A stretch of 63,240 bases of DNA from Ruegeria marina (lineage in GTDB: Bacteria > Pseudomonadota > Alphaproteobacteria > Rhodobacterales > Rhodobacteraceae), in NCBI RefSeq assembly GCF_900101475.1, contig NZ_FMZV01000023.1, positions 1 through 63,240 on the forward strand. Reading direction: 5' to 3'. How positions within the stretch are numbered: position 1 is the first letter of the stretch; each line of letters starts with the position of its first letter. The notes below the pieces were generated by a model. The model made no database searches. It worked only from the letters and a program-made list of their open reading frames with translations, and had not been told where the DNA came from. Shown one piece after another: positions 24,702 to 45,598 of this stretch. The position numbers and the translations under genes are program-made.

Positions 24702-24733
24702 GAAGATGTTCCTTTTCGTGGTCCTGTCCGGTC

Positions 24734-26356: not shown

Positions 26357-26370
26357 TTCCTGCGTCCCCC

Positions 26371-27270
26371 TCAAACCCGTTTCGCAAAGCGCGGGTCAAG
26401 CGTGTCGCGCAGACCGTCGCCCAGCATGTTGACCGCCAGAACGGTCAGGGCCAGCACCAGACCGGGGTAGAAGATGTTGTGGGGATAGAGCTGGAACACC
26501 GCGCGGCCCTCGGCCATGATGTTGCCCCATGTCGGGATCTCGGGCGGGATGCCGATACCGAGGAACGACAGGATCGCTTCGACGATGATGGCGGAGGCGA
26601 CGATGAACGTGCCCTGCACGATCAGCGGTGCGATGGTGTTGGGCAGGATGTGGCGCACCAGCAGAACCGGGGTTCGGGTGCCTGCGGTGATCGCGGCCTC
26701 GACATAGGGTTCTTCACGGATCGACAGCACGATGGAACGGACCAGACGCACCACGCGCGGCACCTCAGGCACCACGATGGCGATGATCACGCTGGTCAGG
26801 CCGGCGCTGAACAGCGACACGACCGCGATGGCCAGCAGGATTGCCGGGATCGCCATCAACCCGTCCATTATTCGCATGATGATCCCGTCGAGCCATCGGA
26901 CATAACCGGCCAGCACCCCGATCGCCATGCCGATCACGATGGAGATCGCAGCGACCGAAATGCCCACGACCAGCGAGATCCGCGCGCCATAGACGATGCG
27001 GCTGTAGACATCGCGGCCCAGCGTATCCGAGCCAAGGCGATAGACCACGGGAACCTTCGCGCCAGAATTGTCGCGGACCGTGGTCTCGTAGCCCGGGGGC
27101 TGGTTGCGGTCCTTGGGCGAGATATCGGCCGGATCGCGGGTGCCCAGCACCGGCGCCAGCAGCCCCATCAGCAGAATGGCCAGAACCAGCAGCCCGCCAA
27201 TGATCACCGAAGGATTGGCCAGCATCCGGCGCAGGGTCTGGCTACCGGGAGAAATCGCAGCGGTCGTCAT
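26371..27270 (-). CDS. ABC importer permease, DppC-type
   Basis: A 299-residue inner-membrane protein. A long N-terminal helix (IIGGLLVLAILLMGLLAPVL) precedes a DPADISP segment and LGSDTLGRDVYSRIVYGARISL, which is diagnostic of DppC/OppC. The transmembrane block carries the EAA coupling loop (EPYVEAAITAGTRTP, PNTIAPLIVQG). Its ATG shares one base with the stop of the DppB-type gene, and the ATPase gene follows after about 15 bases. With DppB it forms the channel for dipeptides or similar solutes. Confidence 0.9.
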   Translation of the reverse strand: MTTAAISPGSQTLRRMLANPSVIIGGLLVLAILLMGLLAPVLGTRDPADISPKDRNQPPGYETTVRDNSGAKVPVVYRLGSDTLGRDVYSRIVYGARISLVVGISVAAISIVIGMAIGVLAGYVRWLDGIIMRIMDGLMAIPAILLAIAVVSLFSAGLTSVIIAIVVPEVPRVVRLVRSIVLSIREEPYVEAAITAGTRTPVLLVRHILPNTIAPLIVQGTFIVASAIIVEAILSFLGIGIPPEIPTWGNIMAEGRAVFQLYPHNIFYPGLVLALTVLAVNMLGDGLRDTLDPRFAKRV

Positions 27271-28211
27271 CAGTAGCGTATCCTTGGGTCGAGCAGGGTA
27301 TAGCTGACGTCAATCGCGAGGTTGATCAGCACATAGATGAAGGAAAACAGCAGGATCACTGCCTGGATCGTCGGGAAATCCCGTGCCAGAACGGCCTCGA
27401 CCGTCAGCAGGCCGAGACCGGGCAGGTTGAAGACCGACTCGGTCACGACCACGCCCCCGATCAGAATGGCAAAGGACAGCCCGATCACCGTGACGATGGG
27501 CACCGCCGCGTTGCGCACGGCATGGTGCATCAGAACCTTGCTTTCAGTCTGGCCCTTGGCGCGCGCGGTGCGGATGTAATCCTCGCCCAGGACCTCGAGC
27601 ACGCTGGTTCGCGTCATCCGGGCGATGAACGCCACGAAGATCACCGACAGCGCGACAGAGGGCAGGATCAGCCGCAGCAGCCATCCCCCGACCCCGTCGG
27701 AGATACGCTGATAGCCTTGCACCGGCAGCCATCCGAGCTGGATCGAGAACACGTAGATCAGAATGTAGCCGATCACGAAGACCGGCAGCGAGAAGCCCAG
27801 GACCGAGAACCCCATGATGCCCCGGTCAAGCCAGCTGCCCTGGCGATAGGCCGCCAGCGTGCCCAGCGGCACCGCGATGCAGACGGTCAGGATGATGGTC
27901 AGAAGCGACAGCGACAGGGTGGGTTCGAGCCGCGCCGCGATCAATTCGCCAACCTGCTTCTTGTAAAAGAAGCTTTCGCCGAAATCGCCCTGGAACATGT
28001 TGCCGAGCCAGACCATGAACTGGACAGGCAATGGCTTGTCCAGTCCCAGCTTGGACCGGATCTCGGCGATTTGCGCGTCGTTCGCGTAGTCGCCGGCAAT
28101 GATCGCAGCGGGGTCGCCGGGCGTCAGACGCAGCAGCATGAAAACGAAGACAGCGACCAGCAGCATGACGGGAATGGTCGCAAGCAGGCGGCGAAGAAGA
28201 TAACTGAACAT
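27270..28211 (-). CDS. ABC importer permease, DppB-type
   Basis: A 313-residue inner-membrane protein typical of DppB: N-terminal helix in MFSYLLRRLLATIPVMLLVA, the LRLTPGDPAA motif, six helices and the coupling motif LGEDYIRTARAKGQTE, then the DPRIRY ending. GGAG precedes the ATG. It lies 68 bases after the substrate-binding protein stop, and that gap contains a strong stem-loop. It partners the DppC-type protein that follows with a one-base overlap. Confidence 0.9.
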   Translation of the reverse strand: MFSYLLRRLLATIPVMLLVAVFVFMLLRLTPGDPAAIIAGDYANDAQIAEIRSKLGLDKPLPVQFMVWLGNMFQGDFGESFFYKKQVGELIAARLEPTLSLSLLTIILTVCIAVPLGTLAAYRQGSWLDRGIMGFSVLGFSLPVFVIGYILIYVFSIQLGWLPVQGYQRISDGVGGWLLRLILPSVALSVIFVAFIARMTRTSVLEVLGEDYIRTARAKGQTESKVLMHHAVRNAAVPIVTVIGLSFAILIGGVVVTESVFNLPGLGLLTVEAVLARDFPTIQAVILLFSFIYVLINLAIDVSYTLLDPRIRY

Positions 28212-28239
28212 TGGACTCCGACTTCTTGCAGCTCAGATG

Positions 28240-28270
28240 ACCTGCGCGGCAGACGAGCCGCCGCGCAGGT
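28240..28270 (-). promoter_or_regulatory. intercistronic stem-loop between binding protein and permease genes
   Basis: ACCTGCGCGGC (28240-28250) and GCCGCGCAGGT (28260-28270) are exact reverse complements with a 9-base loop, just after the substrate-binding protein stop. There is no U-run behind it, so it is unlikely to be a full terminator. Hairpins here commonly protect the upstream message or cause partial termination, giving more binding protein than permease. Confidence 0.6.
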
Positions 28271-28279
28271 GCGATTTCA

Positions 28280-29875
28280 TCAGTTCTTGGAGATATTCCA
28301 GAACACGGCGGCACCTGTGGGCAGGACGCCGTCGATGTTCGACCGCGTGGCGGTCGCCTGGTTCCACTGACCCAGGTGGATGTGGGTCGGGTATTCGAAC
28401 CAGGCGCCCTGGACATCTTCCACGATCTTCAGCTGTTCTTCCTTGGTTGTCGCCCGGGCAAAGGCGTCACGGAGTCCTTCGATCTTTTCATCGCAGGGCC
28501 AGCCGAACAGGGCGGTTTCGCAGCTCGAGTTGAGGAAGGCCATGGCAACCGGGTTGAACAGGTCGCCCGCGGTCCACGAGGTGATGAAGGCGTTCCAGCC
28601 GCCGTCGGCAATGGCTTCCTTCTTCGCGCGGCGGGCCACCAGCGTCTGCCAGTCCATCGACTGCATGTCGACATTCAGGCCGACGGCTTCCATCAGGTCC
28701 TTGGCCACCGGGGCCAGGTTGGTCAGCACCGCAAGGTCGGTCGAGTGCATCAGCAGGATCGGGGTGCCGTCATAGCCGGCCTCCTTGATCAGCTCGCGCG
28801 CCTTGTCGAAGTTCGACTCCAGCAGCCCATCCATGTGGGCATCGGTTTCGAAGGGCATGCCGCAGCCGAACATCGCCTTGCACGCCTTGTAATAGTCGGC
28901 GTTGCCGATCTGCGCCTGCAGGAAATCCTCCTGGTTGAGCGCATAGAGAAGCGCCTGGCGCATCTTCGGGTTGTCGAACGGCGGGTGCAGGACGTTGAAC
29001 CGGAAGGTGAACTGGTTGCCCGCCGGGTTGAAATCGACAAGCTTGATGTTCTCGTCGCCTTCGACCAGCGGCAGCAGGTCATGCGGCAGACCCTCGATAT
29101 AGTCGAGTTCGCCCGCCTTCAGCGCGTTGACCGCCTGTTGCTGGTCGCGGATCGGAAGCCATTCCACCCGGTCGACCTTGGCGACCTTGCCGCCCGCCAG
29201 GCCTGAGGCCGGTTCGGACCGCGGCACATAGCCCTCGAACTTGTCGTACACGATCTTGGTACCCGGCTCCCAGGCTTCCTGGTTGAACACGAAGGGACCC
29301 GACCCGATGAACTCCGAGATCTGCTCGGATGAGGGCGTGTTGGCGATGCGCTCGGGCATCATGAACGGCACGTTCGAACTGGGCTTGGCCAGCGCCAGCG
29401 TCACAAGGCCGGTCTGGGCATTCAGCTTGAAGGTGATGGTCTTCTCATCCGTCGCCTCCAGCGAGTCGACGAAGCTCATCATCTTCTGGCCCATGGCGTC
29501 CTTGGAGCCCCAGCGCTTGATCGAGGCGACACAGTCGGCCGCCGTCACCGGCGCACCGTCATGCCACGCCAGACCGTCGCGCAAAGTCATGGTGATGGTC
29601 AGGCCATCGTCCGAAGTGGTGACCGTATCGACCATCTGCGGCTGAATGTTGCCGGATTCGTCCAGCGCAAACAGCGTGTCATAAATCATGTAACCGTGGT
29701 TGCGCGAGATATAGGCCGTGGTCCAGATCGGGTCGAGAATTTTCAGGTCCGAGTGCGGAACGATCTTCAGAGTGGTCTCGGCCTGGGCGTATGTTCCCGT
29801 GGCGCTCAGCCCCAGGCCCATCACCATCGCTGCCACGGCACCCTTTATCAGGCCGCGTCGTGCGGTTTTGAACAT
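28280..29875 (-). CDS. periplasmic substrate-binding protein of dipeptide-type ABC importer (SBP family 5)
   Basis: A 531-residue secreted protein. The N terminus (KTARRGLIKGAVAAMVMGLG, then AQA) is a signal peptide, possibly a Tat-type one because of the RRGL. The mature part has family-5 features: LDPIWTTAYISRNHGYMIYD, LRDGLAWHDGAPVTAADCV, GSGPFVF, FRFNVLHPPFDNPKMRQALL and DMQSMDWQTLVARR. It delivers dipeptide-like or related solutes to the DppB/DppC-type permeases. It is the first gene of the importer operon; a terminator about 100 bases upstream separates it from the M81 gene. Ligand identity cannot be told, though the peptidase neighbours point to an N-acyl or peptide-like compound. Confidence 0.9.
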   Translation of the reverse strand: MFKTARRGLIKGAVAAMVMGLGLSATGTYAQAETTLKIVPHSDLKILDPIWTTAYISRNHGYMIYDTLFALDESGNIQPQMVDTVTTSDDGLTITMTLRDGLAWHDGAPVTAADCVASIKRWGSKDAMGQKMMSFVDSLEATDEKTITFKLNAQTGLVTLALAKPSSNVPFMMPERIANTPSSEQISEFIGSGPFVFNQEAWEPGTKIVYDKFEGYVPRSEPASGLAGGKVAKVDRVEWLPIRDQQQAVNALKAGELDYIEGLPHDLLPLVEGDENIKLVDFNPAGNQFTFRFNVLHPPFDNPKMRQALLYALNQEDFLQAQIGNADYYKACKAMFGCGMPFETDAHMDGLLESNFDKARELIKEAGYDGTPILLMHSTDLAVLTNLAPVAKDLMEAVGLNVDMQSMDWQTLVARRAKKEAIADGGWNAFITSWTAGDLFNPVAMAFLNSSCETALFGWPCDEKIEGLRDAFARATTKEEQLKIVEDVQGAWFEYPTHIHLGQWNQATATRSNIDGVLPTGAAVFWNISKN

Positions 29876-29960
29876 TGTTTGCTCCCTGTGGTTTTCATAC
29901 GCAATTTACTTGCGCCATCTTCATCATTGAGGCCGATCCGGCACGTGTCAAAGGATTTCG

Positions 29961-29999
29961 AAAAAATATTTACCGTTGGTTCGGATATCGAACCAACGG
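29961..29999 (-). terminator. Rho-independent terminator behind the M81 peptidase gene
   Basis: On the minus strand a stem of CCGTTGGTTCG and CGAACCAACGG (29973-29983 and 29989-29999, exact complements, 5-base loop) is followed by TAAATATTTTTT (29972-29961). This is a classic intrinsic terminator about 80 bases downstream of the M81 stop. It isolates that transcription unit from the substrate-binding protein gene. Confidence 0.82.
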
Positions 30000-30081
30000 G
30001 AGTAAAAACCCTGTCTTTTCAGAGGCAACCCGCTTTTGTGACGAACAACCGGACGCAAAAAGAACGGCGGCAATCGCGGAA

Positions 30082-31530
30082 TCAGGTGAAGGGGTTTTCG
30101 ACCTTTGGCCAATAGTTCCCGTCGCGCCTGGTGTAGGGGATATTGGCGTAATCCGGGGTGATCGCACCGGGGCCGGAGATGTAGATGACCTCGGAGGCAA
30201 TCGGCGCGAATCCGGCGTGGAAGTGTTGCGAGGATTTCACGACCACGATCTGCATCCGCGAAAGGTCAAGCCCCAGTTCGGTGAAGCCAATCGGATGGAA
30301 CGCCTGTGTGCGCTTGTCGCTAAGTACCAAGTGTACGCCGTTCGATTCCAGCCAGACGCCATTGCCCATCGGCATCCGGGTCTGGCCCATCATCTGGTGC
30401 ATGTTCTCCTTCACGCCACGCACGGTCACGGTCAGGTCCACCGGATCGCCGGACATCGGCCCCACCTTGCCGCCCAACCTGACCTGCATCGTGGCGCCGA
30501 CCCCGGCATCCATGCACATGCGCACCACGACCGGATCCCAGAAGATGCCGATCGCCACATCCTTCAGGCCCCGCCGCAGGACCTCTTGCAGGACGAAAGT
30601 CGAGTCCGCCGGCGCGCCGCCGCCCGCGTTGTCGGCAAAATCAGCAACAACCACCGGTGTTTTCGGGGCGGCCTGGGCAAGGTCCAGTGCGCCACCGATC
30701 GAAGGCCAGTCCACCCGTACGCCTTCGCGCAGGGACCAGAGTTTTTCGCCGAACTCCCGCGCGACAGCATCCGCCTTCTTGGCGTCGCCGTCGGTGATGG
30801 CAAGCATCCGTGCGCCCACCCGGGCGCAGTCTCCCCAGGGAAAGCCATGTGCCAGCGAAAGCGACAGGATACCGCCCTGCCCTTCGCGTGCCTGCATCTC
30901 GTCAACGAAACCGCGCATCGGCGCGCGGGTGGTGTGAAACATCGAGATCATCCGGCAATCGTAATCGCGCATTACCGGGCTGATCTTGCCTTCGGCGGTA
31001 TCCGCCGCGAGCGTGAACAATTCGCGCGCCCGGTCGGGGCTGTCGGTATGAGGGTATTCCTTGTAGCAGATGATCAGATCGGCGGCGTCGAGCATGTCCT
31101 GCGTCAGGTGATTGTGCGGGTCGATTTCCAGCCCGATGACGACCTCGTCGCCCAGGATCGCCCGCGCGCGGGTCAGCAGATCACCTTCGCAATCGTCGTA
31201 CCCGTCGGCGATCATGGCGCCATGCATGGAGAAAAGCGCGATGTCGGGTGCGGCTTTCCTAAGATCGCCAAGGATTTCGTCGCGAAACGTCTCATAGGTT
31301 CCGCGTATGGTCGGACCGGCCGGCTGGGCGAAGGCGGCAAGGCTTTCGATCACCTCCCAGCCCCGCGCCTCGGCCATGCCCCGCCACTCGTGCAGCGGCG
31401 CGGAAAACAGGTTGGCCGGTTCGGCGGTCGCGCGGCGGCTGACAAAACTGTCCTGAAAGGCAAGCGTTCCCGTGGGTATCGGCGAGAAACTGTTGGTCTC
31501 TGTCGCCAGGCCTGCAATGAATACCTTCAT
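30082..31530 (-). CDS. M81-family metallopeptidase (MlrC-like)
   Basis: A 482-residue protein with the MlrC/M81 pattern: N-terminal MKVFIAGLATETNSFSPIPTG, the metal-site segments SMHGAMIADGYDDCEGD and GLEIDPHNHLTQDM, then YKEYPHTD, a linker and a C-terminal MlrC domain with VVVADFADNAGGGAPADSTF. MlrC degrades the tetrapeptide from microcystin, but family members are widespread beside peptide importers and probably cleave other small amides or peptides. The start at 31530 begins exactly at the family N terminus, although the frame is open further upstream. It lies 232 bases behind the CoA-transferase gene (31531-31762 shows no gene) and ends in a clear terminator. Confidence 0.86.
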   Translation of the reverse strand: MKVFIAGLATETNSFSPIPTGTLAFQDSFVSRRATAEPANLFSAPLHEWRGMAEARGWEVIESLAAFAQPAGPTIRGTYETFRDEILGDLRKAAPDIALFSMHGAMIADGYDDCEGDLLTRARAILGDEVVIGLEIDPHNHLTQDMLDAADLIICYKEYPHTDSPDRARELFTLAADTAEGKISPVMRDYDCRMISMFHTTRAPMRGFVDEMQAREGQGGILSLSLAHGFPWGDCARVGARMLAITDGDAKKADAVAREFGEKLWSLREGVRVDWPSIGGALDLAQAAPKTPVVVADFADNAGGGAPADSTFVLQEVLRRGLKDVAIGIFWDPVVVRMCMDAGVGATMQVRLGGKVGPMSGDPVDLTVTVRGVKENMHQMMGQTRMPMGNGVWLESNGVHLVLSDKRTQAFHPIGFTELGLDLSRMQIVVVKSSQHFHAGFAPIASEVIYISGPGAITPDYANIPYTRRDGNYWPKVENPFT

Positions 31531-31762
31531 CTCTTCCCCTCCTCGACCTCCTGGGTCCCTGCCCGGAATCCGGCCATTGGCCGTCCTCGGCAATTCAGAG
31601 CAAGATATCGCCCTTGTCGCAAGAGCCCAGATTTCTGACGCAGCGTATGCGCCATCGCAGTTCCCTGCGTCCGGACAGGGGTCTTGCGTCCACAACCATC
31701 GGAGATCGCGGCCATGGAGCGGGATTGCCGGGCGACGAACCGGGCAATCCGGGTGAGGTCGC

Positions 31763-33004
31763 TCAGGCGGCCGTGTACAGCCTGGCCGACCGGCCGCCGC
31801 CGACGATACCCTTGTCGAACAGACGTGCGATTTCCGTGTCGTCCAACCCCGTGACCTCGCTGAGTATCTCCTCGGTATTCGCCCCGAGGCTCGGAGCGGC
31901 CCGTGGCTTTTCGCGGTCCAAACCGGAAAAATCGGCCACATGCCCGGGCACCGGGAACCGGCCGAGACCCTCTTGCGCAAGCTCTGTGAAGATCGGGTTG
32001 TCCGGGCCTAAATCCGGGTCGCAGGCAACCGCTTCCTTCACGGTCCGGAACTCTGACCATGTCAGTTTCGCCTCGTCGAAGGTTTGTGCGATCACATTTA
32101 CGGGACGGGCCGCGAACCAGGGCGCGAGGATTTCGGTGATCTCCTTGCGCAACTGCCAACGCACCCCTTCATCCGTCAGGTTGCGCCCGGTGCGTCGTGC
32201 CAACAGCTCCATTTCCTGCCCGGTGCCGGTCACCTCGACCAACCCGGCCCATTGCCTGCGGGTCAGGCCGATCACCATGATCCGACGACCATCCGCGCAC
32301 AGGAAATCCTGCCCATAGGCACCGTAAAGCGCATTGCCCGATTTTGTGCGCTGTTCCTTGTTGAGCACGGCGTCCCCGATCATGCCGAGATGTCCAATCG
32401 TGGCGGCCGCGATGTCCTTGAGGGTCAGCGTCACCTCCTGGCCCGAACCTTTCCTCAGCCGATGACGTTCTGCCGCCAGGACGGACGATACGCACATATG
32501 CCCGGCTATCAGGTCCCAAGCAGGTAGCGCGTTCGCCACCGGCCCCTCGTGCCCTTCGGGCCCCGTGATGTCGGGAATGCCCAGCGCGGGGTTGACCGTA
32601 TAGTCTACCTGCGGGCGGCCATGACGGTCGCCCAGCAGCGTGACCATGATCAGATCCTCGCGGTGACGACGGAGCGTTTCGTAATCCATCCATCCCCTGA
32701 CCCGCAGGTTGGTCAGGAACACGCCCGCCTCTTCACCCGGCGCGGTTATAGTGCGCGTGATCAGGTCCCGGCCTTCCGGGTGGTTCATGTTCACCGCGAT
32801 CGATCGCTTGCCCTTGTTCAGCCCCGCCCAGAACAGGCTTTTCCCCGAAGGAGCGAGAGGCCAGCGACCGGCGTCCAATCCGCCTTCGAGCCGATCGAAG
32901 CGAATGACGTCGGCCCCCATCTGGGCCAGCGTCATGCCCGCCAGCGGAACCGCGACAAAGGCGGACCCTTCGACCACCCGCAATCCGTTCAAGATACCCG
33001 CCAT
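31763..33004 (-). CDS. mct: mesaconyl-CoA C1-C4 CoA transferase-like protein (2-methylfumaryl-CoA isomerase type)
   Basis: A 413-residue family III CoA-transferase that resembles Mct of the 3-hydroxypropionate bicycle far more closely than general CaiB proteins, judged from memory: GLRVVEGSAFVAVPLAGMTL, FWAGLNKGKRSIAV, VDYTVNPALGIPDITGP, LPAWDLIAGHM, GALYGAYGQDF-like NALYGAYGQDF and RIMVIGLTRRQW. The catalytic Asp is D164 (LPAWD). Mct moves CoA within mesaconate from C1 to C4. Its ATG directly abuts the stop of the hydratase gene, whose product would use mesaconyl-C4-CoA, so the context supports the specific name. Confidence 0.8.
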   Translation of the reverse strand: MAGILNGLRVVEGSAFVAVPLAGMTLAQMGADVIRFDRLEGGLDAGRWPLAPSGKSLFWAGLNKGKRSIAVNMNHPEGRDLITRTITAPGEEAGVFLTNLRVRGWMDYETLRRHREDLIMVTLLGDRHGRPQVDYTVNPALGIPDITGPEGHEGPVANALPAWDLIAGHMCVSSVLAAERHRLRKGSGQEVTLTLKDIAAATIGHLGMIGDAVLNKEQRTKSGNALYGAYGQDFLCADGRRIMVIGLTRRQWAGLVEVTGTGQEMELLARRTGRNLTDEGVRWQLRKEITEILAPWFAARPVNVIAQTFDEAKLTWSEFRTVKEAVACDPDLGPDNPIFTELAQEGLGRFPVPGHVADFSGLDREKPRAAPSLGANTEEILSEVTGLDDTEIARLFDKGIVGGGRSARLYTAA

Positions 33005-33916
33005 CTAATCCTCCCATTCCGCTTTTGATTGCATGCAGATGTGACCGGCCGCTGCGACGGTGCACATATCGAGCCGGCCGGTCCCGGCTTGTGTTGCGCG
33101 CAGATGGATATCCGCGCCCTGAAACATCGGGTGCACCCCGCGAAAGCTGAAGCGATCCGGTCTGCGGCCCTTCCATGCCGTGGCTTCCGCCAGCAAGAGG
33201 TTCGCCTGAAGGGGCCCATGCACCACCAGCCCGGGGTAATGCTCGACCTGCCGGGCATAGGGCAGATCATAATGAATCCTGTGTGCGTTGAAGGTTATCG
33301 CCGAATACCGGAACAACAATGCGGTCGAAACCGGCTGGCGAATGTCGATCACCAGGTCTCTGGTCGGAGCCATCTTCCTGGGGGGCGGCGAGAACTCCGG
33401 CGCTATGGGCAGATAAACGATCGTCTGACTTTCCCGGACCGCCAGGCCGCGGCGTCCGCGCAATTCATGCTCAACCTCGACAAACACCATGCCCCCGGCC
33501 GAGCCTGACTTCTCCTCGATGCTGGTGATGGTCGATGTCTTTTCGATCTCCTCGCCGACCACAAGATCGCCCAGGAATTGCAGCCTGCCGCTGGCCCACA
33601 TCCGCCGTTCGTAGGGAACGGGCGGCAAGAAGCCGCCAAGTCTGGGGTGGCCGTCCGCAGCCAGGTCACAAGTCCCCACGGCGCTGGGGAACGCGTACCA
33701 ATGCCAGAGCGCGGGCATCGGATCCCCTGCCGCTGGACAGTCCAGATACGGCCGGGAAAGCGTCGCATGGATGGCGATGGCCGAAGTGACCGGGACGCAG
33801 CCCGTCACCGTTTCCTTTCGGCCCACCCAATCCGAAAGGCCGGCGCCGGGCGGCGGGCCGGTTTTCGGCATGCTCCCGGCAGGTATGTCGCGCATTCCGT
33901 CCATGGACAGCGTCAT
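33005..33916 (-). CDS. meh: mesaconyl-C4-CoA hydratase-like MaoC/FAS1-type dehydratase
   Basis: A 303-residue hotdog-fold hydratase. The N-terminal hotdog (DWVGRKETVTGCVPVTSAIA, WHWYAFPSAV, LGGFLPPVPYERRMWASGRL) and the C-terminal hotdog (FRYSAITFNAHRIHYDLPYA, VVHGPLQANLL) match the HTD2/Meh group; the last segment carries the catalytic Asn/His-type residues. Meh hydrates mesaconyl-C4-CoA to (S)-citramalyl-CoA. The start at 33916 overlaps the ligase alpha-subunit stop as ATGA, and the stop touches the mct ATG. The order mtkB-meh-mct with no gaps indicates one translationally coupled unit. Confidence 0.77.
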   Translation of the reverse strand: MTLSMDGMRDIPAGSMPKTGPPPGAGLSDWVGRKETVTGCVPVTSAIAIHATLSRPYLDCPAAGDPMPALWHWYAFPSAVGTCDLAADGHPRLGGFLPPVPYERRMWASGRLQFLGDLVVGEEIEKTSTITSIEEKSGSAGGMVFVEVEHELRGRRGLAVRESQTIVYLPIAPEFSPPPRKMAPTRDLVIDIRQPVSTALLFRYSAITFNAHRIHYDLPYARQVEHYPGLVVHGPLQANLLLAEATAWKGRRPDRFSFRGVHPMFQGADIHLRATQAGTGRLDMCTVAAAGHICMQSKAEWED

Positions 33917-34812
33917 GCCGCAACCCGGCCCGGGGCCAGGATCCGCGCCATCGTCTCTCCCATCGCGGAAGGGTTTGGCGCAACCTCGATGCCGCAAGAA
34001 CTGAGCAGTGCGACCTTTTCCTGCGCACTTTCGCCGAAAGCGGAGATGATCGCGCCGGCATGACCCATCTGGCGACCCTTCGGCGCGGCCAGGCCGGCAA
34101 TGTAGGCCGCGACCGGTTTGGTCATGTGGTCCCGCACATAGGCGGCGGCCTCGGCCTCCTGCGGTCCGCCGATTTCCCCGATCATCATGACCGCATCGGT
34201 GTCCGGATCGGCCTCGAAAAGCTCGAGTATATCACGGAAGGATGAACCGTTGATCGGATCGCCGCCGATACCTATCGACGAAGACACCCCGATGCCCAGG
34301 GCCTGCATCTGGGATGCAGCCTCGTATCCGAGTGTTCCCGAACGCCCGACGATACCGACCCGCCCCGGCGTGTAGATATGGGGTGGCATGATGCCCATGA
34401 AGCCTTTTCCGGGGCTGATGATCCCGGCGCAGTTGGGGCCGATCAGGCGCATTTTTCGATCGCGGGGAAACCGGCGCAGGAACCGTTTCACCCGCATCAT
34501 GTCCTGGGCAGGAATGCCATCGGTCACGCAGACCGCGGTGCGGATACCGGCATCGGCCGCTTCCATCATCGCGTCGGCGGCGCCCGCAGGTGGCACGAAG
34601 AGAAGGCTGGCTTCGGCACCCGTCGCCTCCACCGCCTCGCGCATGGTGTTGAACACCGGACGGTTCAGCACGGTGGTGCCGCCCTTGCCCGGCGTGACCC
34701 CGGCAACCACCCTGGTGCCGTATTCGATCATCTCCTGCGCGTGGAATTGGCCGATCCGCCCGGACAGGCCCTGGACGATGACGCGCGTGGTTTCGGTGAT
34801 GAGAATTGCCAT
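33913..34812 (-). CDS. mtkB: malate-CoA ligase (malate thiokinase) alpha subunit
   Basis: A 299-residue subunit of the SucD superfamily: Rossmann CoA-binding start (TTRVIVQGLSGRIGQFHAQ), VTPGKGG, RLIGPNCAGIISPGKGFMGI, GIVGRSGTLGYEAASQM, and the loop with the phosphorylated His (KGRQMGHAGAI). It joins malate and CoA at the expense of ATP together with the beta subunit. Succinyl-CoA synthetase alpha is similar, but the neighbouring malyl-CoA lyase and serine-glyoxylate aminotransferase, plus MtkB-like wording of several motifs, favour malate as substrate. Eleven bases separate it from the beta-subunit gene. Confidence 0.85.
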   Translation of the reverse strand: MAILITETTRVIVQGLSGRIGQFHAQEMIEYGTRVVAGVTPGKGGTTVLNRPVFNTMREAVEATGAEASLLFVPPAGAADAMMEAADAGIRTAVCVTDGIPAQDMMRVKRFLRRFPRDRKMRLIGPNCAGIISPGKGFMGIMPPHIYTPGRVGIVGRSGTLGYEAASQMQALGIGVSSSIGIGGDPINGSSFRDILELFEADPDTDAVMMIGEIGGPQEAEAAAYVRDHMTKPVAAYIAGLAAPKGRQMGHAGAIISAFGESAQEKVALLSSCGIEVAPNPSAMGETMARILAPGRVAA

Positions 34813-34822
34813 GAGACCCCCC

Positions 34823-36001
34823 TTATTCGGCTGCGATGGATTGTGGACGGGCCGCCACGGCGGCCTCTGCGGCTGCGGCCAGCGTATCGGCGTCGATGAT
34901 CGGCAGGCCGCTGTCCCGGATCAGCTTGCGCCCGGCCTCGACATTGGTGCCCGACAGCCGCACCACCACCGGAACGCCGATGCCGATGTCCTTGTAGGCT
35001 TGGATCACCCCTCTCGCGATCCAGTCGCACCGGTTGATCCCGGCGAAGATGTTGACGAGAATCACGCTGACATTGGGGTCGGACAACACGGTGCGAAACG
35101 CCTGGCAGACCCGCTCCGGGCTGGCGCCGCCGCCGATATCGAGGAAATTCGCGGGCGCTCCCCCGGCCAGGTGGATCATGTCCATCGAGGCCATGGCAAG
35201 GCCCGCGCCGTTGATGATGCAACCGATGTCGCCGTCAAGGCCCACGTAGGCCAGCCCGTGATCGGCGGCGAAACTCTCACGCGGGTCTTCCTGGCCCGGA
35301 TCCCTCAGGCCCGCTATTTCGCCCCGCCGGAACAGGGCATTCGTATCGAAGGACATTTTCGCATCCAGGGCGACCAGCGAACCGTCGGCGCATACGACAA
35401 GCGGATTGATCTCGACCATCATGGCATCGAGATCGCGATAGGCCCGGTAGCAGGCTTTCAGAACGGTCACCATCTGGCCGACCTGCGCCCCTTCGAGGCC
35501 AAGCTTGAAGGCCAGCTCGCGAGCCTGGTATTCGGCCAGTCCGACCGCGGGATCCAGGATCATCCGGATCAGGCTGTCGGGGTCTTCTTCCGCCAGATCC
35601 TCGATTTCCATCCCGCCGTGACCTGAGGCGACGATCATGATCCGCTCGGATTTTCGGTCGAGCACGAAGCCGAGATAGAGTTCTCGCTCGATCTGCGAGG
35701 CTTCCTCGACCCAGAGGCGGTCGATGCGCTTGCCGGCAGCATCGGTCTGCTTGGTCACAAGGGCGGTTCCCAGCAGATGTCTGGCAAAATCCCGCACGTC
35801 CTCGTCAGTGTCGCACAGTTTCACGCCCCCGGCGGCACCGCGCCCCCCGGAATGGATCTGCGCCTTGACCACACAGCGGCCCCCGCCCAGCTCAAGGCGG
35901 CGAAAGGCGGCCTGTTCCGGGGTGAAGGCGATCCCGCCGCGCGGCACCGGGACGCCAAAATTCTTCAGGATTTCCTTGGCTTGGTATTCGTGAATGTCCA
36001 T
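34823..36001 (-). CDS. mtkA: malate-CoA ligase (malate thiokinase) beta subunit
   Basis: A 392-residue ATP-grasp subunit of the SucC superfamily: [39 protein letters not shown] (nucleotide contact), [34 protein letters not shown] and [23 protein letters not shown], rather than the GGGATKE of succinyl-CoA synthetase, and the CDWIA stretch are typical of MtkA. It works with the alpha subunit that follows 11 bases later. In serine-cycle bacteria the pair supplies malyl-CoA to the lyase encoded 24 bases upstream here. Confidence 0.86.
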
Positions 36002-36024
36002 TGTCTCTGCTCCCCGGTTTCAGA

Positions 36025-36987
36025 CTATTCCGCTGCCACGACCTTGGTGGATTTGGTAGCGATGGCATTTGCCGCGTCGATCAGATTGCGCGCCATCTTT
36101 TCGCTGGCGGCGTCGATCATCTTTCCATCAAGGCTGGCGGCGCCCCTGCCCTCCGCCTCTGCCGCCTTCAGCTCGGCGATGATGCGCCTGGCCTTTGCGA
36201 TTTCCGTTTCCGGCGGGCTGAAGACATCGTTGGCCATTCCGATCTGACTGGGATGGATGGCCCATTTGCCTTCGCAACCCAGAGCGGCCGCGCGGCGCGC
36301 CGCCGCAACGTATCCGTCGGGATCGCTGAAATCGCCGAACGGACCGTCGATCGGCCGCAACCCGTAGGCACGGCAGGCAATGACCATCCGGGTGATGGAG
36401 GCATGCCACTGGTCGCCCGGATAGTCCGGGTTGAGACCACCGATATTGACGGTGCGCGCCCGCATGCTGGCCGCATAGTCGGCCACCCCGAAATGAAGCG
36501 CTTCGAGCCGGCCTCCGAACTGCGCAATGGCTTCGACATTGGCCATGCCCAGCGCCGTCTCGATAAGCGCCTCTATCCCGACGCGCGTTTGCAGTCCGCC
36601 AGCCTGTTCGACCTGATTGATCATGGCCTCGACCATGTAGAGATCGGCCGGAACGCCCACCTTGGGGACCAGAAGCGTGTGCACGCGGTCTCCCGCCTGT
36701 TCCATCACGTCGACGACATCGCGGTACATGTACTGGGTATCAAGACCGTTGATCCGGACCGACACCGTCTTGCCTCTGGCGGCCCAGTCGATATCGTTCA
36801 GGGCCTGGATGGCGTTCTTGCGCGCCTGGATTTTTTCCGGCGGCGCCACCGCGTCCTCGAGATCGAGGAAGACGAAGTCGGCGGCGCTTTCTGCGGCCTT
36901 GTCAATCATCGTCGGATTGGATGCAGGCACGGCAAGTTCCGAGCGTTGCAGGCGCTGTTTACGCAAGGGATGCAAGGTATGTGACAT
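36025..36987 (-). CDS. mclA: malyl-CoA lyase (HpcH/HpaI aldolase family)
   Basis: A 320-residue Mg-dependent CoA-ester lyase: RSELAVPASNPTMIDKAAE, FLDLEDAVAP (metal-binding acidic residues), SVRINGLDTQYMYRDVVD, LLVPKVGVPAD, FGVADYAASMRARTV, RPIDGPFGDFSDPDGY and GKWAIHPSQIGMAND. These segments read like MclA of methylotrophs rather than CitE. The enzyme splits malyl-CoA into acetyl-CoA and glyoxylate; relatives also handle beta-methylmalyl-CoA and (S)-citramalyl-CoA. That last activity is what the two downstream mesaconyl-CoA enzymes would need. It lies between sgaA (33-bp gap) and mtkA (23-bp gap). Confidence 0.88.
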   Translation of the reverse strand: MSHTLHPLRKQRLQRSELAVPASNPTMIDKAAESAADFVFLDLEDAVAPPEKIQARKNAIQALNDIDWAARGKTVSVRINGLDTQYMYRDVVDVMEQAGDRVHTLLVPKVGVPADLYMVEAMINQVEQAGGLQTRVGIEALIETALGMANVEAIAQFGGRLEALHFGVADYAASMRARTVNIGGLNPDYPGDQWHASITRMVIACRAYGLRPIDGPFGDFSDPDGYVAAARRAAALGCEGKWAIHPSQIGMANDVFSPPETEIAKARRIIAELKAAEAEGRGAASLDGKMIDAASEKMARNLIDAANAIATKSTKVVAAE

Positions 36988-37020
36988 TGTGAACTCTATC
37001 GATTAGGGGTTTGAAAGGGT

Positions 37021-38223
37021 TTATTCGGCTGCGACACGCAGCATCGGGCGCAGGTCGGCCTGTGTTGCGTACCACGCCTGTGCGGCACCAACGCCCGATC
37101 CCAACCGGATCGGCACGCCGGCGCGATAGAGCGCCATTTCGGCGATCGAAAGCGCGGCTAGGCACATGCCGTCGTTCAGGTCGCCCAGGTGGCCGATACG
37201 AAAGACCTTGCCCGCCAGGGGACCAAGCCCGCTTCCGAAGGATGTGTTGAAATCCGCATATGCGATGCGCAAGACATCCCGCGCGTCGACATCGGCAGGC
37301 ACGCGGATCGCGGATACCGTATCCGAGTAGAGCGTGTGATGTTCGGCCACCAGCGACAGTTCCCAGGCCGCAACGCCGCGCCGCACGCCCTCGGCCAGCC
37401 GATGATGACGCGCGATGACCTGCTCGAGCCCTTCGGCCCGGATCCGGTCGAGCGATTTCCGCAGACCGTGGAAAAGCTGGGTTGGCGGAGTGTACGGAAA
37501 ATAGCCATCGGCATTCATCTTCAGCATATCGTCGAATTCGAAATATGCCCGGCGCGATCTTGCGGATCTGGAGGCTTCCAACGCCTTTTCGCTGACACCC
37601 AGAATACCAAGGCCGGCAGGCAGCATGAGACCCTTCTGGCTGCCGGTGACGATCAGATCGACCTCCCATTCGTCCATCCGGAAATCCAGCGATCCGACCG
37701 AGGAAACACCATCAACGAACAGCAGCGCGTCGTGGAAATTCTCGTCCAGCGCGCGGCGGACGGCGGCGATATCGGATGTGACACCTGTCGCGGTTTCATT
37801 ATGTGTCACGAACACGGCCTTGATCGCGTCCTCCCGATCCTGTCCCAAGAGTCGCGAAAACTCCTTGACCGGAGTACCGGCGCCCCAGGGAACGTCCACA
37901 ACAACGACGTCCAGACCCAGACGCTTCGCCATCTCGACCCAAAGCGAAGAAAACTGGCCGTGCCGCGCCATGAGAACCTTGTCTCCAGGGCTGAGCGTGT
38001 TGGTGATCGCGGCCTCCCAGGCACCGGTTCCGGAGCCCGGAAAGAACATCACCCGTCCTTTTTCGGTACGAAGGACCGATTTCATGTCGGCAAACAGTCC
38101 AAGTGTAAGGTCCCCGAAATCGGCAGCACGCATATCCTGCATCGGGACGTTCATGGCCTGGCGAACGGGTTCGGGAATGTTTGTCGGACCGGGAATGAAA
38201 AGGTGGGAATGACCAGTGCGCAT
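37021..38223 (-). CDS. sgaA: serine-glyoxylate aminotransferase (class V, PLP)
   Basis: A 400-residue PLP enzyme: N-terminal HLFIPGPTNIPEPVRQAM, FFPGSGTGAWEAAI, VTHNETATGVTSDI, LLFVDGVSSVGSLDF and the Schiff-base Lys at K197 in VTGSQKGLMLPAGL, with FSGSGLGPLAGKVFRIGHLG-like ending (seen as SFGSGLGPLAGKVFRIGHLG). It transfers the amino group of serine to glyoxylate, giving hydroxypyruvate and glycine. As first gene of the operon it removes the glyoxylate that malyl-CoA lyase releases. It is divergent from the ScfR-type regulator, and the shared region holds repeat motifs. Confidence 0.9.
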   Translation of the reverse strand: MRTGHSHLFIPGPTNIPEPVRQAMNVPMQDMRAADFGDLTLGLFADMKSVLRTEKGRVMFFPGSGTGAWEAAITNTLSPGDKVLMARHGQFSSLWVEMAKRLGLDVVVVDVPWGAGTPVKEFSRLLGQDREDAIKAVFVTHNETATGVTSDIAAVRRALDENFHDALLFVDGVSSVGSLDFRMDEWEVDLIVTGSQKGLMLPAGLGILGVSEKALEASRSARSRRAYFEFDDMLKMNADGYFPYTPPTQLFHGLRKSLDRIRAEGLEQVIARHHRLAEGVRRGVAAWELSLVAEHHTLYSDTVSAIRVPADVDARDVLRIAYADFNTSFGSGLGPLAGKVFRIGHLGDLNDGMCLAALSIAEMALYRAGVPIRLGSGVGAAQAWYATQADLRPMLRVAAE

Positions 38224-38294
38224 GTAGAATCCTCCGTGTTAGAAGGAGCACTAACGCGCAAGAAGCCGATGCTGCAAAAGCAACCGGGTCCTGC

Positions 38295-38348
38295 TGTGAA
38301 TGCGAAAATTCACATCATTTTATATTTGTGAGTTTGTGAATTTGTGAT
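38295..38348. promoter_or_regulatory. tandem octamers and inverted repeat in the sgaA/scfR divergent promoter
   Basis: Three head-to-tail octamers TTTGTGA(G/A/T) lie at 38325-38332, 38333-38340 and 38341-38348. Just upstream is an inverted repeat, TGTGAAT (38295-38301) and ATTCACA (38308-38314), which contains the same TGTGA core. They fill the space between the divergent genes and end 11 bases before the regulator start. They are plausible binding sites for the ScfR-type protein acting on both promoters. Confidence 0.5.
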
Positions 38349-38358
38349 ATTTGAAGAC

Positions 38359-39762
38359 ATGAAAACCTTTATCGGACCACGCCTTCGGCGCCTCAGGAAA
38401 GAGACCGGACAAACCCAGGCGGAAATGGCCAAGGCGCTTGGGATCAGCAATTCCTATGTGAACATGCTTGAAAAGAACGAGCGCAGCGTATCGGTTCCGG
38501 TGTTGCTGCGCCTGCTCGAAGCCTACGGGGTCGACTGGCGCGAGATCGCCGAGGACGACAGCACCGCGGCATTGGGAGACTTGCGCACAGTGTTCCAGGA
38601 TCCGCTCTTCGAAGCGCATCGCCCGGACCTGCCGCAGTTGCGCGCCCTCCTGGCGCATTGCCCGGATGTCGTTCAATGCCTGTTGCAGCTGCACCGGTCA
38701 TATCTTGCCGCCACAGACCAGATTCTGGGTCTGTCCAATGCCCGCGAATCCAAGTTGCGGAACCTGCAAGCATCTCCCGAAGCGGTGGTTCACGACTTTT
38801 TCCGAAACAACAGGAACCACTTTCCGGAACTGGAGGATGCCGCCGCCGCGTTCTGGGGCGGACGCGAGGTTCGAAGCGATGACGTCTACACGGCATTGAA
38901 GGAACGCCTCTACGAGAGGCTTGGCGTGACGACGGAACTGGTTCCCGTCGCCCGGATGCCCGAGTCCCTGCGTGAATACGACGAAAGCCGGAAGATACTG
39001 CGTCTCTCCGAAGGGTTGGACCACCCGAACCGGACATTTCAACTGGTTCATGTTACAGCGCTGATCGAGCAGAGCGAACTGATCGATACGATTCTGGCTC
39101 GTCTGAACGTCGTCGAGCCCGCTGGCCTCAATCGCTGCCGCGTCGAACTGGCAAACTACTTCGCCGCGGCGGTTCTCATGCCTTATGAATCGTTTCTGAA
39201 CGAAGCATTGGCGAGCAAGTATGACTTCACCCACCTGTCCTTGCGCTTTGGCGTCAGCTTCGAGCAGGCCTGCCACCGCGCAACGACGCTGCAGCGCGAA
39301 ACGGCAAAGGGCGTTCCGTTCTTCTTCCTGCGGATCGACAAGGCGGGCAATGTCACCAAGCGGTTCAACTCGACCGCGTTTCAACTCGCCGAATATGGCG
39401 GTGCCTGTCCGCGCCTTGATGTACATTCGTCCTTTCGCACACCCGGAGCGATCGTCCCCCAGTTCGTGGAAATGCCCGATGGCGGACGGTTCTTCGTGTT
39501 TGCCCGAACGGTCAACCGACCGAGGTTCACGCGTCACACACAAGACAAGCGCCTGGCAATCGCCATGGGCTGCGGCATCGAACATCTCGAAGCCATCGGC
39601 TATGCCGAGGAATTCAGGCAGAGCAACCCCAACATCACCGAGATCGGAATCAATTGCCGCATTTGTCCCCGTGCCAATTGCGATCAGCGTGCACATAACG
39701 CGATGATATTGAACGCGCCCGTCGATGTTCGCCGCCGCGGGCCAACGCGCTACGCAACATAG
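38359..39762 (+). CDS. short-chain acyl-CoA responsive XRE regulator (ScfR/RamB/PccR type)
   Basis: A 467-residue regulator. Residues 1-60 form an XRE helix-turn-helix (RLRRLRKETGQTQAEMAKAL, NSYVNMLEKNERSVSVPVL). The middle (about 190-320) is an IrrE/DUF955-like domain, and the C-terminal DUF2083 domain ends in GINCRICPRANCDQRAH, with the Cys cluster typical of the family. Family members sense short-chain acyl-CoA and control glyoxylate shunt, propionyl-CoA or ethylmalonyl-CoA pathway genes. ATG 38359 is used because the helix-turn-helix begins there; a GTG at 38344 is in frame but lies inside the octamer repeats. It is divergent from the sgaA operon and probably controls it. Confidence 0.87.
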   Translation: MKTFIGPRLRRLRKETGQTQAEMAKALGISNSYVNMLEKNERSVSVPVLLRLLEAYGVDWREIAEDDSTAALGDLRTVFQDPLFEAHRPDLPQLRALLAHCPDVVQCLLQLHRSYLAATDQILGLSNARESKLRNLQASPEAVVHDFFRNNRNHFPELEDAAAAFWGGREVRSDDVYTALKERLYERLGVTTELVPVARMPESLREYDESRKILRLSEGLDHPNRTFQLVHVTALIEQSELIDTILARLNVVEPAGLNRCRVELANYFAAAVLMPYESFLNEALASKYDFTHLSLRFGVSFEQACHRATTLQRETAKGVPFFFLRIDKAGNVTKRFNSTAFQLAEYGGACPRLDVHSSFRTPGAIVPQFVEMPDGGRFFVFARTVNRPRFTRHTQDKRLAIAMGCGIEHLEAIGYAEEFRQSNPNITEIGINCRICPRANCDQRAHNAMILNAPVDVRRRGPTRYAT

Positions 39763-42441: not shown

Positions 42442-43578
42442 GTGATGAAACATTCCAGCCCAGGCAGAGATCAGTTTGAAAAGAAGCTTGAGCTCCGCGC
42501 CTTGAAGCAGAAGTCTCTGAAGGTCTTGGTCGTCGATGACGAACCAAGCATACTGGAGCTGCTCAAAACCGCATTGAGCTCCTTCGGAAACTGCACGGTA
42601 ACGGCGGCAAACTCAGCCGCCGGGGCTCTCAAGATACTGGAAAAGACAGAAGTCCCGTTCGAATGTTTCCTGCTGGATATCCAGATGCCGACGATGAACG
42701 GCATCGAGTTGCTGCGCAGGATTCGCAGCTTGCCGCAATATTCAGAAACCCCGGTGATCATGCTCACCGCAATGAGCGAAAGAAAATACGTCGAAGAAGC
42801 CTTTCTCGAAGGCGCCACCGACTACGTCACCAAACCGTTTGATTTCCTTGAACTGCGAAGCCGCATCAACTCGGCCCACCTGTTGATGCAGGAACGTCTC
42901 AAGGCGCAGAAAACCATGGAGTCGGCGCGGTTCCTGCGGGAAGAACTCGACTACAATCAGCAGTTCAATCTGGAGGATCCGCTTTCGATCGAAGGCCTGG
43001 ACAGGTTCCTGCGGTATGTGGAGTTCGACAATTACATCGAACAATTGTCCCGCGGCCGGCTGTTCGACTCGTGGGTGACCGCGATCAAGCTGCAGGATGC
43101 CGAGTTCTACTTCGACCTGAGCAACTGCGGTGATTTTCGTCGTGCCATTGCCGATATCGGCGCAGCCATTCAGAAAACGACCAAGGATTCGGATGCCGTT
43201 TTTTCCTATCGCGGCAACGGCGTGTTCCTTGTTGTCACCCATGGCAAGGAGGCGACCATTGCCTTGCCTCTGGAAGAACGTTTGAATCAGGTGTTTCAGA
43301 CGATACTGGGCAATCGCCGCGCCTCCGGCTGGCTTCGCGCGCTGATCGGTGAGCGGGTTTCGATGCGCTCCCTGTCCAAGGCGGGCGCATTCTCTGCGAT
43401 GAACAAGGCAACAAAGAACGTGGACATGCGCGAAGCGGCGCTGCGCAAGGACGTGGAAGCCCACCCCGAAGAAGATGGGCTTGTGGAACCCGCCTCTCAG
43501 GAAAAAGAGCGCAGACGGATCTATGAACGCGTCATGCTCGAACTCTTCGGCAAGGATTGCTACCTGGCGCAGAAATAG
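42442..43578 (+). CDS. response regulator with degenerate GGDEF-like output domain (copy 1)
   Basis: A 378-residue protein. After a 26-residue leader comes a receiver domain: VLVVDDEPSILELL, phospho-acceptor D79 in LLDIQMPTMNG, the conserved Thr/Ser in MLTAMSE and Lys in TKPFDF. The C-terminal 200 residues end in DAVFSYRGNGVFLVV, reminiscent of a GGDEF domain in which the GG(D/E)EF signature is lost, so cyclic-di-GMP synthesis is unlikely. The same layout occurs in the second regulator at 46823-47764. It flanks the histidine kinase and the AHL synthase and is probably phosphorylated by that kinase. Confidence 0.83.
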   Translation: MMKHSSPGRDQFEKKLELRALKQKSLKVLVVDDEPSILELLKTALSSFGNCTVTAANSAAGALKILEKTEVPFECFLLDIQMPTMNGIELLRRIRSLPQYSETPVIMLTAMSERKYVEEAFLEGATDYVTKPFDFLELRSRINSAHLLMQERLKAQKTMESARFLREELDYNQQFNLEDPLSIEGLDRFLRYVEFDNYIEQLSRGRLFDSWVTAIKLQDAEFYFDLSNCGDFRRAIADIGAAIQKTTKDSDAVFSYRGNGVFLVVTHGKEATIALPLEERLNQVFQTILGNRRASGWLRALIGERVSMRSLSKAGAFSAMNKATKNVDMREAALRKDVEAHPEEDGLVEPASQEKERRRIYERVMLELFGKDCYLAQK

Positions 43579-45435: not shown

Positions 45436-45598
45436 TTGTCAAACTGCTTTAGTTGAGCCTCGACGATTTCTTAGCCTGCCATTGAGGAAGCAGTGGGTCG
45501 GAATTGCGGTCACAGTTTGACCGAAGCCCACCGCCTGCCGCACAGGCAGCGTATTGCTTCCGCAAAGGGAAGTACGCTCCCTGTTGGTTGGGCGCGGA

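Follow-up and report, generated by a model that had tools for sequence, protein, structure and literature searches.

A conserved operon in Ruegeria marina, divergent from an ScfR-type regulator gene, that may open an exit from mesaconyl-CoA to pyruvate

The subject of this analysis is a six-gene operon in a 63,240-nucleotide stretch of Ruegeria marina DNA (NCBI RefSeq assembly GCF_900101475.1, contig NZ_FMZV01000023.1), the whole of which is referred to as the window. The operon consists of six minus-strand open reading frames (ORFs) that run from 38223 to 31763 in the order sgaA-mclA-mtkA-mtkB-meh-mct (Table 1). An earlier note, made from the sequence alone, had described six genes in one direction, and all of them were confirmed as ORFs at their positions; the gaps it had listed as 33, 23, -4 and 0 bases also hold, while the third is 10 bases and not 11. 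Because the same gene order recurs in many genomes, the arrangement is not the product of chance. Absent from that note were the divergent regulator ScfR, its operator, a version of the operon elsewhere that lacks meh-mct, and the wide spread of the system in the family. A hairpin behind mct (-32.2 kcal/mol across a 75-nt stretch, z -2.45) may mark the 3' end of the transcript, and a scan for T-run terminators found no site at it. A sigma-70 promoter scan found 0 sites against 1.7 expected in shuffles, and this result was not used.

Table 1. Operon genes, divergent regulator and predicted regulatory elements (window positions)
Feature	Position	Strand	Length (aa)	Assignment
scfR	38344..39762	plus		divergent RamB-like short-chain acyl-CoA regulator; true start probably ATG at 38359
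predicted operator	38293..38340	minus		TTCACAAACTCACAA, then TGTGAA-N8-TTCACAGC; between scfR and sgaA
sgaA	37021..38223	minus	400	putative serine-glyoxylate aminotransferase
mclA	36025..36987	minus	320	malyl-CoA lyase, CitE superfamily; putative citramalyl-CoA cleavage
mtkA	34823..36001	minus	392	malate-CoA ligase beta, NF010647
mtkB	33913..34812	minus	299	malate-CoA ligase alpha, named from its position beside mtkA
meh	33005..33916	minus	303	candidate mesaconyl-C4-CoA hydratase; 4-base overlap with mtkB
mct	31763..33004	minus	413	Mct-like (2-methylfumaryl-CoA isomerase) by residues and identity
hairpin	31717..31764	minus		just 3' of the mct stop codon; possible transcript 3' end

The regulator carries a helix-turn-helix (HTH) domain (PF01381), an IrrE-like domain (PF06114) and the ScfRs domain (PF09856, 192 bits), and the combination of PF09856 with an XRE-type HTH places it among the ScfR proteins. 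At E 1e-10, RamB was the sole NCBIfam model to match (NF038139, 357 bits, under the cut-off of 700), so that by this model the protein is best called RamB-like rather than RamB. All trees in this work are quick trees with support from the Shimodaira-Hasegawa-like approximate likelihood ratio test (SH-aLRT) and no bootstrap; in the ScfR tree, which carries a long-branch warning, the operon ScfRs formed one clade (35 rows, support 97) apart from 15 other paralogs. The assignment of a shared operator is strengthened by a TGTRAA-N8-TTYACA element in the spacer that separates scfR from the first gene of the operon, where it matched at 10 to 12 of its 12 positions in all 34 distinct regions (44 loci minus 10 duplicates). 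Further T[TC]ACA boxes lie 25 and 17 bases upstream of it, a one-base shift being allowed, with both present in 20 of the 34 regions and at least one in 33. In the window's group together with one further locus (7 regions), the boxes have the form TCACA and the element has TGTGA; among the other 27 regions the first half is TGTAAA in 25, and the second half is of the T type in 17 and of the C type in 10. At two loci that lack sgaA, it is meh that has the element directly before it. At 0 or 1 mismatch the element was found at the operon site only, in four genomes, and a wider regulon was rejected as a candidate, since the four 2-mismatch sites elsewhere compare with 3 control matches.

In Paracoccus, the ScfR-family protein RamB is encoded divergently from a glyoxylate-cycle operon, and its oligomeric state is reported to shift most with beta-methylmalyl-CoA, mesaconyl-CoA and crotonyl-CoA having a weaker effect (PMC10370305). 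By analogy, the operon ScfR would report flux through the ethylmalonyl-CoA pathway (EMCP). The window genome also holds an ScfR paralog, which may be a PccR, at a distance of about 7-11 kb from mcm and a gene for biotin carboxylase. Two further ScfR paralogs adjoin genes of tripartite tricarboxylate transporters.

The window Mct shares 54% identity with 7xkg and 53% with 8apq, both solved mesaconyl-CoA transferases. The earlier note had proposed an alignment with the Chloroflexus enzymes, and this alignment (120 rows, 2 of them Chloroflexi references) revealed that the residues of the intramolecular transferases are kept in the window protein. Specifically, the catalytic Asp165, the mesaconate-pocket residues Arg47 and Tyr136, as well as Asp135 and Asn100, were present in 120 of 120 rows, the window included, and position 43 is Leu in the window, Leu or Ile in 116 rows and Met in 4. 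The roles of these residues, including the narrowing of the tunnel by Leu43 in intramolecular transferases, are those described in PMC9813914. On residues and identity the operon protein is thus best described as an Mct-like enzyme and not as a member of the TIGR04253 model. The idea of Mct as a plasmid-borne trait was tried and rejected, as the plasmid matches at E 1e-60 comprised 24 records, every one of them below 60% identity. Its neighbour Meh matches PF13452 only in Pfam. It is 45% identical (181 bits) to the solved itaconyl-CoA hydratase 8khg, which we take to be from P. aeruginosa, and its identity to the Meh of bicycle-type Meh-Mcl-Mct clusters is 45-49%. Itaconyl-CoA hydratases of the 8khg kind reportedly hydrate mesaconyl-C4-CoA as well (PMC12290011).

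For MclA, the best solved relative was the malyl-CoA/beta-methylmalyl-CoA lyase 5ugr (395 bits), followed by 4l9y (306 bits), with 76 bits to the acyl-CoA lyase 8khl and 176 bits on the RipC/Ccl model (cut-off 375); the enzyme may also cleave citramalyl-CoA. MtkA scored 680 bits on the malate-CoA ligase beta model NF010647, above its cut-off of 604, and MtkB 425 bits on the succinate-CoA ligase alpha model NF004230, above 336. SgaA matched the serine-glyoxylate aminotransferase 6pk1 with 399 bits, and its best model was BhcA (NF045640, 566 bits). Its identity as the BhcA of the beta-hydroxyaspartate cycle was ruled out, because this score lies under the cut-off of 650 and because in the SgaA tree it belongs to a 34-row group containing the aminotransferase of the Aminobacter plasmid pMET1 (support 84), which falls outside the BhcA clade (support 100). 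Two SgaA rows from other MtkA genomes lie on the BhcA side (support 91), and the window genome holds a separate BhcA above the cut-off (718 bits).

The description of sgaA, mclA and mtkAB as serine-cycle enzymes in the working sense was not borne out. No match to phosphoenolpyruvate (PEP) carboxylase (Ppc) was found in the window genome at E 1e-60, and the enzyme was present in 1 of 29 ScfR-type genomes compared with 16 of 43 other MtkA genomes. Moreover, the MtkAB and MclA of ScfR-type operons form a 34-row clade of their own (support 99), from which most other MtkAB are separate. The operon is therefore not a standard serine cycle.

The supply of mesaconyl-CoA was examined in the rest of the window genome (4.99 Mb, 51 contigs), where ccr and mch, two of the four genes that the earlier note had listed for checking, were found. 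Ccr scored 612 bits, above its cut-off, and mch 448 bits to 8hgn. There are two mutases, one a methylmalonyl-CoA mutase above the cut-off and a second, under that cut-off, about 2 kb from ccr, which by its position would be the ethylmalonyl-CoA mutase. An mcl1 orthologue (632 bits to 4l9y) lies outside the operon, and another lyase-like protein, which we take to be Mcl2, is encoded near mch; mcd is probably present as well. Because ccr, the mutase beside it, mch and mcl1 are all present, mesaconyl-C1-CoA should be available. A separate locus at 78-88 kb of another contig carries genes for a short-chain dehydrogenase, CitE and CitF near a LysR gene. Its CitF lies above the citrate lyase alpha cut-off, and its Ccl-like CitE has its nearest relatives in 9nzb and 8khl, acyl-CoA lyases that are presumably the P. 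aeruginosa citramalyl-CoA lyase.

The distribution of the system was analyzed in 295 genomes of the same family, almost one per genus, of which 48 had TIGR04253 matches at E 1e-60. A wider set of 128 mct loci with at least 300 bits to the window Mct was drawn from the window, the family genomes and 80 named loci, some genomes being counted twice; neighbour gene calls at the further loci are crude and include some antisense shadows. In this set meh adjoins mct in 116 of 128 loci, and meh, mtkB, mclA, sgaA and scfR are all in place in 18, with Mameliella alba, Roseibaca ekhonensis and a Roseibacterium among the named operon carriers. Rhodovibrio, outside the ScfR-type clade, has mtkA-mtkB beside meh-mct on the opposite strand. 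At four loci the next gene upstream of meh-mct, reading the same way, is of the malic-enzyme type, and at a fifth such a gene lies one gene further; the one member scanned is a malic enzyme with a phosphotransacetylase-like part (PF00390/PF03949/PF01515). At five listed loci, two of which are one and the same contig, a citramalyl-CoA-lyase-like gene follows mct. These upstream and downstream neighbours are circumstantial evidence that would favour pyruvate as the product.

An initial count found MtkA in 28 of 48 Mct genomes with two kinds of MtkA mixed, and it was superseded by a classification of all 72 MtkA genomes by their neighbours (30 loci with short flanks by the MtkAB tree alone). Of these, 13 carry the operon together with meh-mct, among them one that has only mct and one truncated within mct. 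An ScfR-type operon lacking meh-mct is present in another 13, of which three show no mclA and one shows no sgaA; contig ends interrupt 3 more, and the remaining 43 are of other kinds. Two genomes inside the ScfR-type clade with no scfR beside the genes were counted as other, one with an scfR-like gene elsewhere was counted with the operon, and one whose contig ends inside mct was added to the Mct carriers. On this basis, Mct was found in 22 of 29 ScfR-type genomes versus 27 of 266 others (p 4e-14), and even among the genomes whose operon lacks meh-mct it was present elsewhere in 7 of 13 (Fisher p 2e-4 against 27/266). MtkA genomes of other kinds were not enriched in Mct (7/43 versus 20/223, p 0.17). 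These p values ignore shared ancestry.

The two halves of the operon have conflicting histories. For the Mct tree, sequences shorter than 360 aa and duplicates of the same sequence were dropped, which left 120 rows. It nests the window's group in a 56-row clade (support 99) in which meh-mct pairs standing alone predominate; a 13-row operon clade (support 91) lies elsewhere, as does a third group, a small one that holds operons. In the tree of MtkAB and MclA, the window's group (5 rows) instead joins Mameliella-type operons (8 rows, support 97). The operon label changes 5 times on the Mct tree, unseen contig ends being excluded. This observation was further strengthened by the approximately unbiased (AU) test on 102 rows, 18 long or distant ones being left out, which rejected monophyly of operon-borne Mct (log-likelihood 123 worse, p-AU 0.000372) for a held-together set (21 rows, with five ScfR-linked or contig-cut rows). 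Monophyly of operon-borne Meh (24 rows) was likewise rejected (log-likelihood 48 worse, p-AU 0.00925) on a tree for which 104 rows passed, 3 were removed and 101 were used. Because the halves group differently, meh-mct has probably been joined to, or exchanged within, the same operon slot more than once. The junctions are tight throughout: in operon loci (20 of 21 with both genes) the mtkB-meh distance ranges from -22 to +7 and the meh-mct distance from -4 to +22, with gene starts picked by a script. We regard such repeated joining or exchange, each time with short gaps or overlaps, as the best indication that the six genes function as a unit.

Taken together, we lean, with slightly better than even confidence, towards reading the operon as an acyl-CoA-controlled exit for the mesaconyl-C1-CoA node, with glyoxylate handled by SgaA and by MclA-MtkAB. 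When the EMCP is active, ScfR would sense a CoA ester and induce the operon. Mct would then move the CoA moiety, turning mesaconyl-C1-CoA into mesaconyl-C4-CoA, and Meh would hydrate the latter to (S)-citramalyl-CoA. MclA, or Mcl1, or a Ccl-like lyase encoded elsewhere in the genome, would cleave citramalyl-CoA into pyruvate and acetyl-CoA. The glyoxylate of the normal EMCP branch would be taken by MclA-MtkAB to malate, with a gain of ATP, and by SgaA to glycine and hydroxypyruvate. A drain from mesaconyl-CoA through citramalyl-CoA to pyruvate and acetyl-CoA is the simplest reading of these genes; the enzyme substrates, the direction of flux, the inducer and the specificity of the lyase are inferred. 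Mcl enzymes can perform the lyase step: the Chloroflexus Mcl is reported to cleave citramalyl-CoA efficiently and the R. sphaeroides Mcl to make it from acetyl-CoA with excess pyruvate (PMC3832036). Together with the EMCP enzymes, the net conversion would be acetyl-CoA + CO2 (HCO3-) + 2 NADPH + quinone (UQ) to pyruvate, for which a standard free energy of -39 +/- 9 kJ/mol has been estimated (PMC10521678). Only tentatively, and with the balance of our judgment against it, do we extend this to a natural, aerobic and oxygen-tolerant equivalent of pyruvate synthase, in which the EMCP, Mct, Meh and a citramalyl-CoA lyase would need no ferredoxin, ATP or glyoxylate and would form a regulated anaplerotic and gluconeogenic route of Alphaproteobacteria.

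Several observations weigh against this exit. The window Mct reaches 490 bits on TIGR04253, under the equivalog cut-off of 725 (a cut-off reached by 0 of the 295 same-family genomes), and some of its CoA contacts differ from those in Chloroflexus (Arg75->Asn, Phe101->Leu, Ile74->Met). Judged by the identities given above, Meh appears no farther from itaconyl-CoA hydratase than from the bicycle-cluster Meh, so that its sequence fits either name. MtkAB adjoining MclA could equally run toward glyoxylate in the manner of the serine cycle. The trees are blind to gain versus loss, so that an ancestral operon repeatedly broken up would fit them as well. At one locus mct directly follows mtkB and meh is missing, and in 6 of the 13 genomes whose operon lacks meh-mct, Mct is missing altogether. 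The genus is represented by one other sampled species, which has neither Mct nor MtkA, and the operon therefore looks accessory in the genus. Ccr was dropped as a co-occurrence discriminator, being present in 47 of 48 Mct genomes and in 225 of 247 others (p 0.14). Finally, a search for isocitrate lyase (PF00463 at E 1e-60) gave 0 matches in 295 genomes; it also missed the control Caulobacter, which we take to possess the enzyme, and because of this the count was read as a failure of the threshold and nothing was drawn from it.

The best-surviving alternative, which we consider unlikely yet deserving of serious weight, is the second cycle of the 3-hydroxypropionate bicycle serving co-assimilation, with the same exit fed by propionyl-CoA and glyoxylate. 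MtkAB and MclA would split malate into glyoxylate and acetyl-CoA, Mcl1 and Mch would combine the glyoxylate and propionyl-CoA into mesaconyl-C1-CoA, and Mct, Meh and Mcl would finish the route to pyruvate and acetyl-CoA. Twelve mct loci, in Competibacter, Contendobacter, Rhodoplanes and others, do carry Meh-Mcl-Mct, and several of them add two family III CoA-transferases that may be read, without proof, as succinyl-CoA:malate CoA-transferases, for which MtkAB could substitute. Partial bicycles have been proposed for the assimilation of organic substrates (PMC6593406), and the propionate regulator PccR is among the relatives of ScfR (PMC10370305). SgaA in the operon, however, would compete for glyoxylate, and the RamB-controlled gene of Paracoccus was reported not to be induced by glyoxylate, propionate or both (PMC10370305), RamB being only a relative of ScfR. 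At the level of sequence, an exit fed by acetyl-CoA and one fed by propionyl-CoA plus glyoxylate would look alike.

Catabolism of external C5 dicarboxylates (itaconate, mesaconate or methylsuccinate), with MtkAB as the acid-CoA ligase, is improbable. It would account for the 45% identity of Meh to itaconyl-CoA hydratase and for the match of MclA to the RipC/Ccl model, yet MclA is far nearer to 5ugr than to 8khl, MtkA lies above the malate-CoA ligase cut-off, and the operon holds no second CoA-transferase for a free acid; the three-step itaconate route, as described in PMC12290011, needs no C1-C4 transferase. Operation of the genes backward as a citramalate cycle, from acetyl-CoA and pyruvate through citramalyl-CoA and mesaconyl-CoA to glyoxylate and propionyl-CoA, is quite improbable: the Mcl lyase reaction is reversible (PMC3832036), the mechanism proposed for Mct can give either ester (PMC9813914) and a citramalate cycle has been discussed for purple bacteria (PMC8307300), but citramalyl-CoA synthesis was reported only at a large excess of pyruvate (PMC3832036), and the presence of ccr, its neighbouring mutase and mch already hints at a path via mesaconyl-CoA. 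A remnant of a methylotrophic serine cycle with meh-mct as passengers, as might be imagined from pMET1, where genes for a class V aminotransferase, a CoA ester lyase, mtkA, an mtkB-type protein, D-glycerate dehydrogenase and DUF4147 stand together, is the most improbable, given that Ppc was found neither in the window genome nor in 28 of 29 ScfR-type genomes, that MtkAB and MclA stand apart from most other MtkAB with conflicting histories of the halves, and that the regulator is of the short-chain acyl-CoA type.

Elsewhere in the window, the same strand downstream of the operon (23532-31980, minus) carries dipeptide-type ATP-binding cassette (ABC) transporter genes (24734-29875), an M81/MlrC-like protein gene within 30082-31980 and an M20 peptidase gene (23532-24701). 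On the plus strand, positions 17712-20195 encode an 827-aa protein with two tandem family III CoA-transferase domains, for which no NCBIfam cut-off was reached, followed by a dimethylformamidase-beta-like gene (20200-21837). In the region 42442-47764, a LuxI-type autoinducer synthase gene (45599-46357) lies near genes for a histidine kinase and two response regulators.

If the proposed exit from mesaconyl-C1-CoA exists, the EMCP of aerobic bacteria gains a second natural outlet, one that delivers pyruvate straight from acetyl-CoA and CO2. This conversion is otherwise made through ferredoxin-dependent pyruvate synthase or a detour by C4 acids. Some relatives of the roseobacters thus carry a regulated gene set apparently suited to making pyruvate out of an acetate-metabolism intermediate. 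A description available from 2019 places these genes in Chloroflexi, at least four gammaproteobacterial clades, one symbiotic alphaproteobacterium and Accumulibacter (PMC6593406), and a 2022 survey mentions the detection of bicycle enzymes in Alphaproteobacteria (PMC9802188). That survey covered 52,515 metagenome-assembled genomes, with TIGR04253 at E < 1e-99 as the first filter for the bicycle and a pathway-completeness threshold after it (PMC9802188). All 48 Mct genomes of the present family pass this E-value (scaled to one genome) and 47 of them carry ccr, so that Mct alone may equally mark heterotrophic acetyl-CoA metabolism rather than CO2-fixing growth. The remark in the earlier note that the combination is not a standard described pathway agrees with the open-licence literature, as far as it was accessible, in which neither a natural EMCP-to-pyruvate exit nor a description of this operon was found and only an artificial design of 2021 came close (PMC10521678). 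The operon thus appears as a new arrangement of known enzymes.

Compared with known systems, the operon shares Mct, Meh and a malyl-CoA lyase, and with them the steps from mesaconyl-C1-CoA through citramalyl-CoA to pyruvate and acetyl-CoA, with the second cycle of the 3-hydroxypropionate bicycle, known from Chloroflexus and in parts from Accumulibacter, Competibacter and Kentron (PMC6593406). It differs in that MtkAB adjoins MclA in the place that CoA-transferases take in several bicycle-type clusters, in the addition of SgaA and ScfR, and in having no mch inside, with mesaconyl-CoA probably coming also from the EMCP. With the EMCP of Rhodobacter sphaeroides and Methylorubrum the window genome shares the mesaconyl-C1-CoA node together with ccr, the mutase beside it, mch and mcl1, to which the operon adds a putative second exit that would bypass glyoxylate and propionyl-CoA. 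The in-silico reductive citramalyl/ethylmalonyl-CoA pathway likewise leads from acetyl-CoA and HCO3- to pyruvate via mesaconyl-CoA and citramalyl-CoA; it was presented as an artificial connecting module, whereas the operon consists of natural genes with a regulator (PMC10521678). The serine-cycle-type operon of Aminobacter pMET1 has the same sgaA-mclA-mtkA-mtkB order, but the window operon has neither the D-glycerate dehydrogenase nor the DUF4147 gene, no Ppc was found in its genome, its MtkAB belongs to a different clade, and meh-mct and ScfR are added. Finally, the RamB-controlled glyoxylate-cycle operon of Paracoccus denitrificans resembles the locus in its divergent ScfR, its glyoxylate-handling operon and the boxes between them, and is unlike it in that the targets of RamB are malate synthase and isocitrate lyase (PMC10370305).

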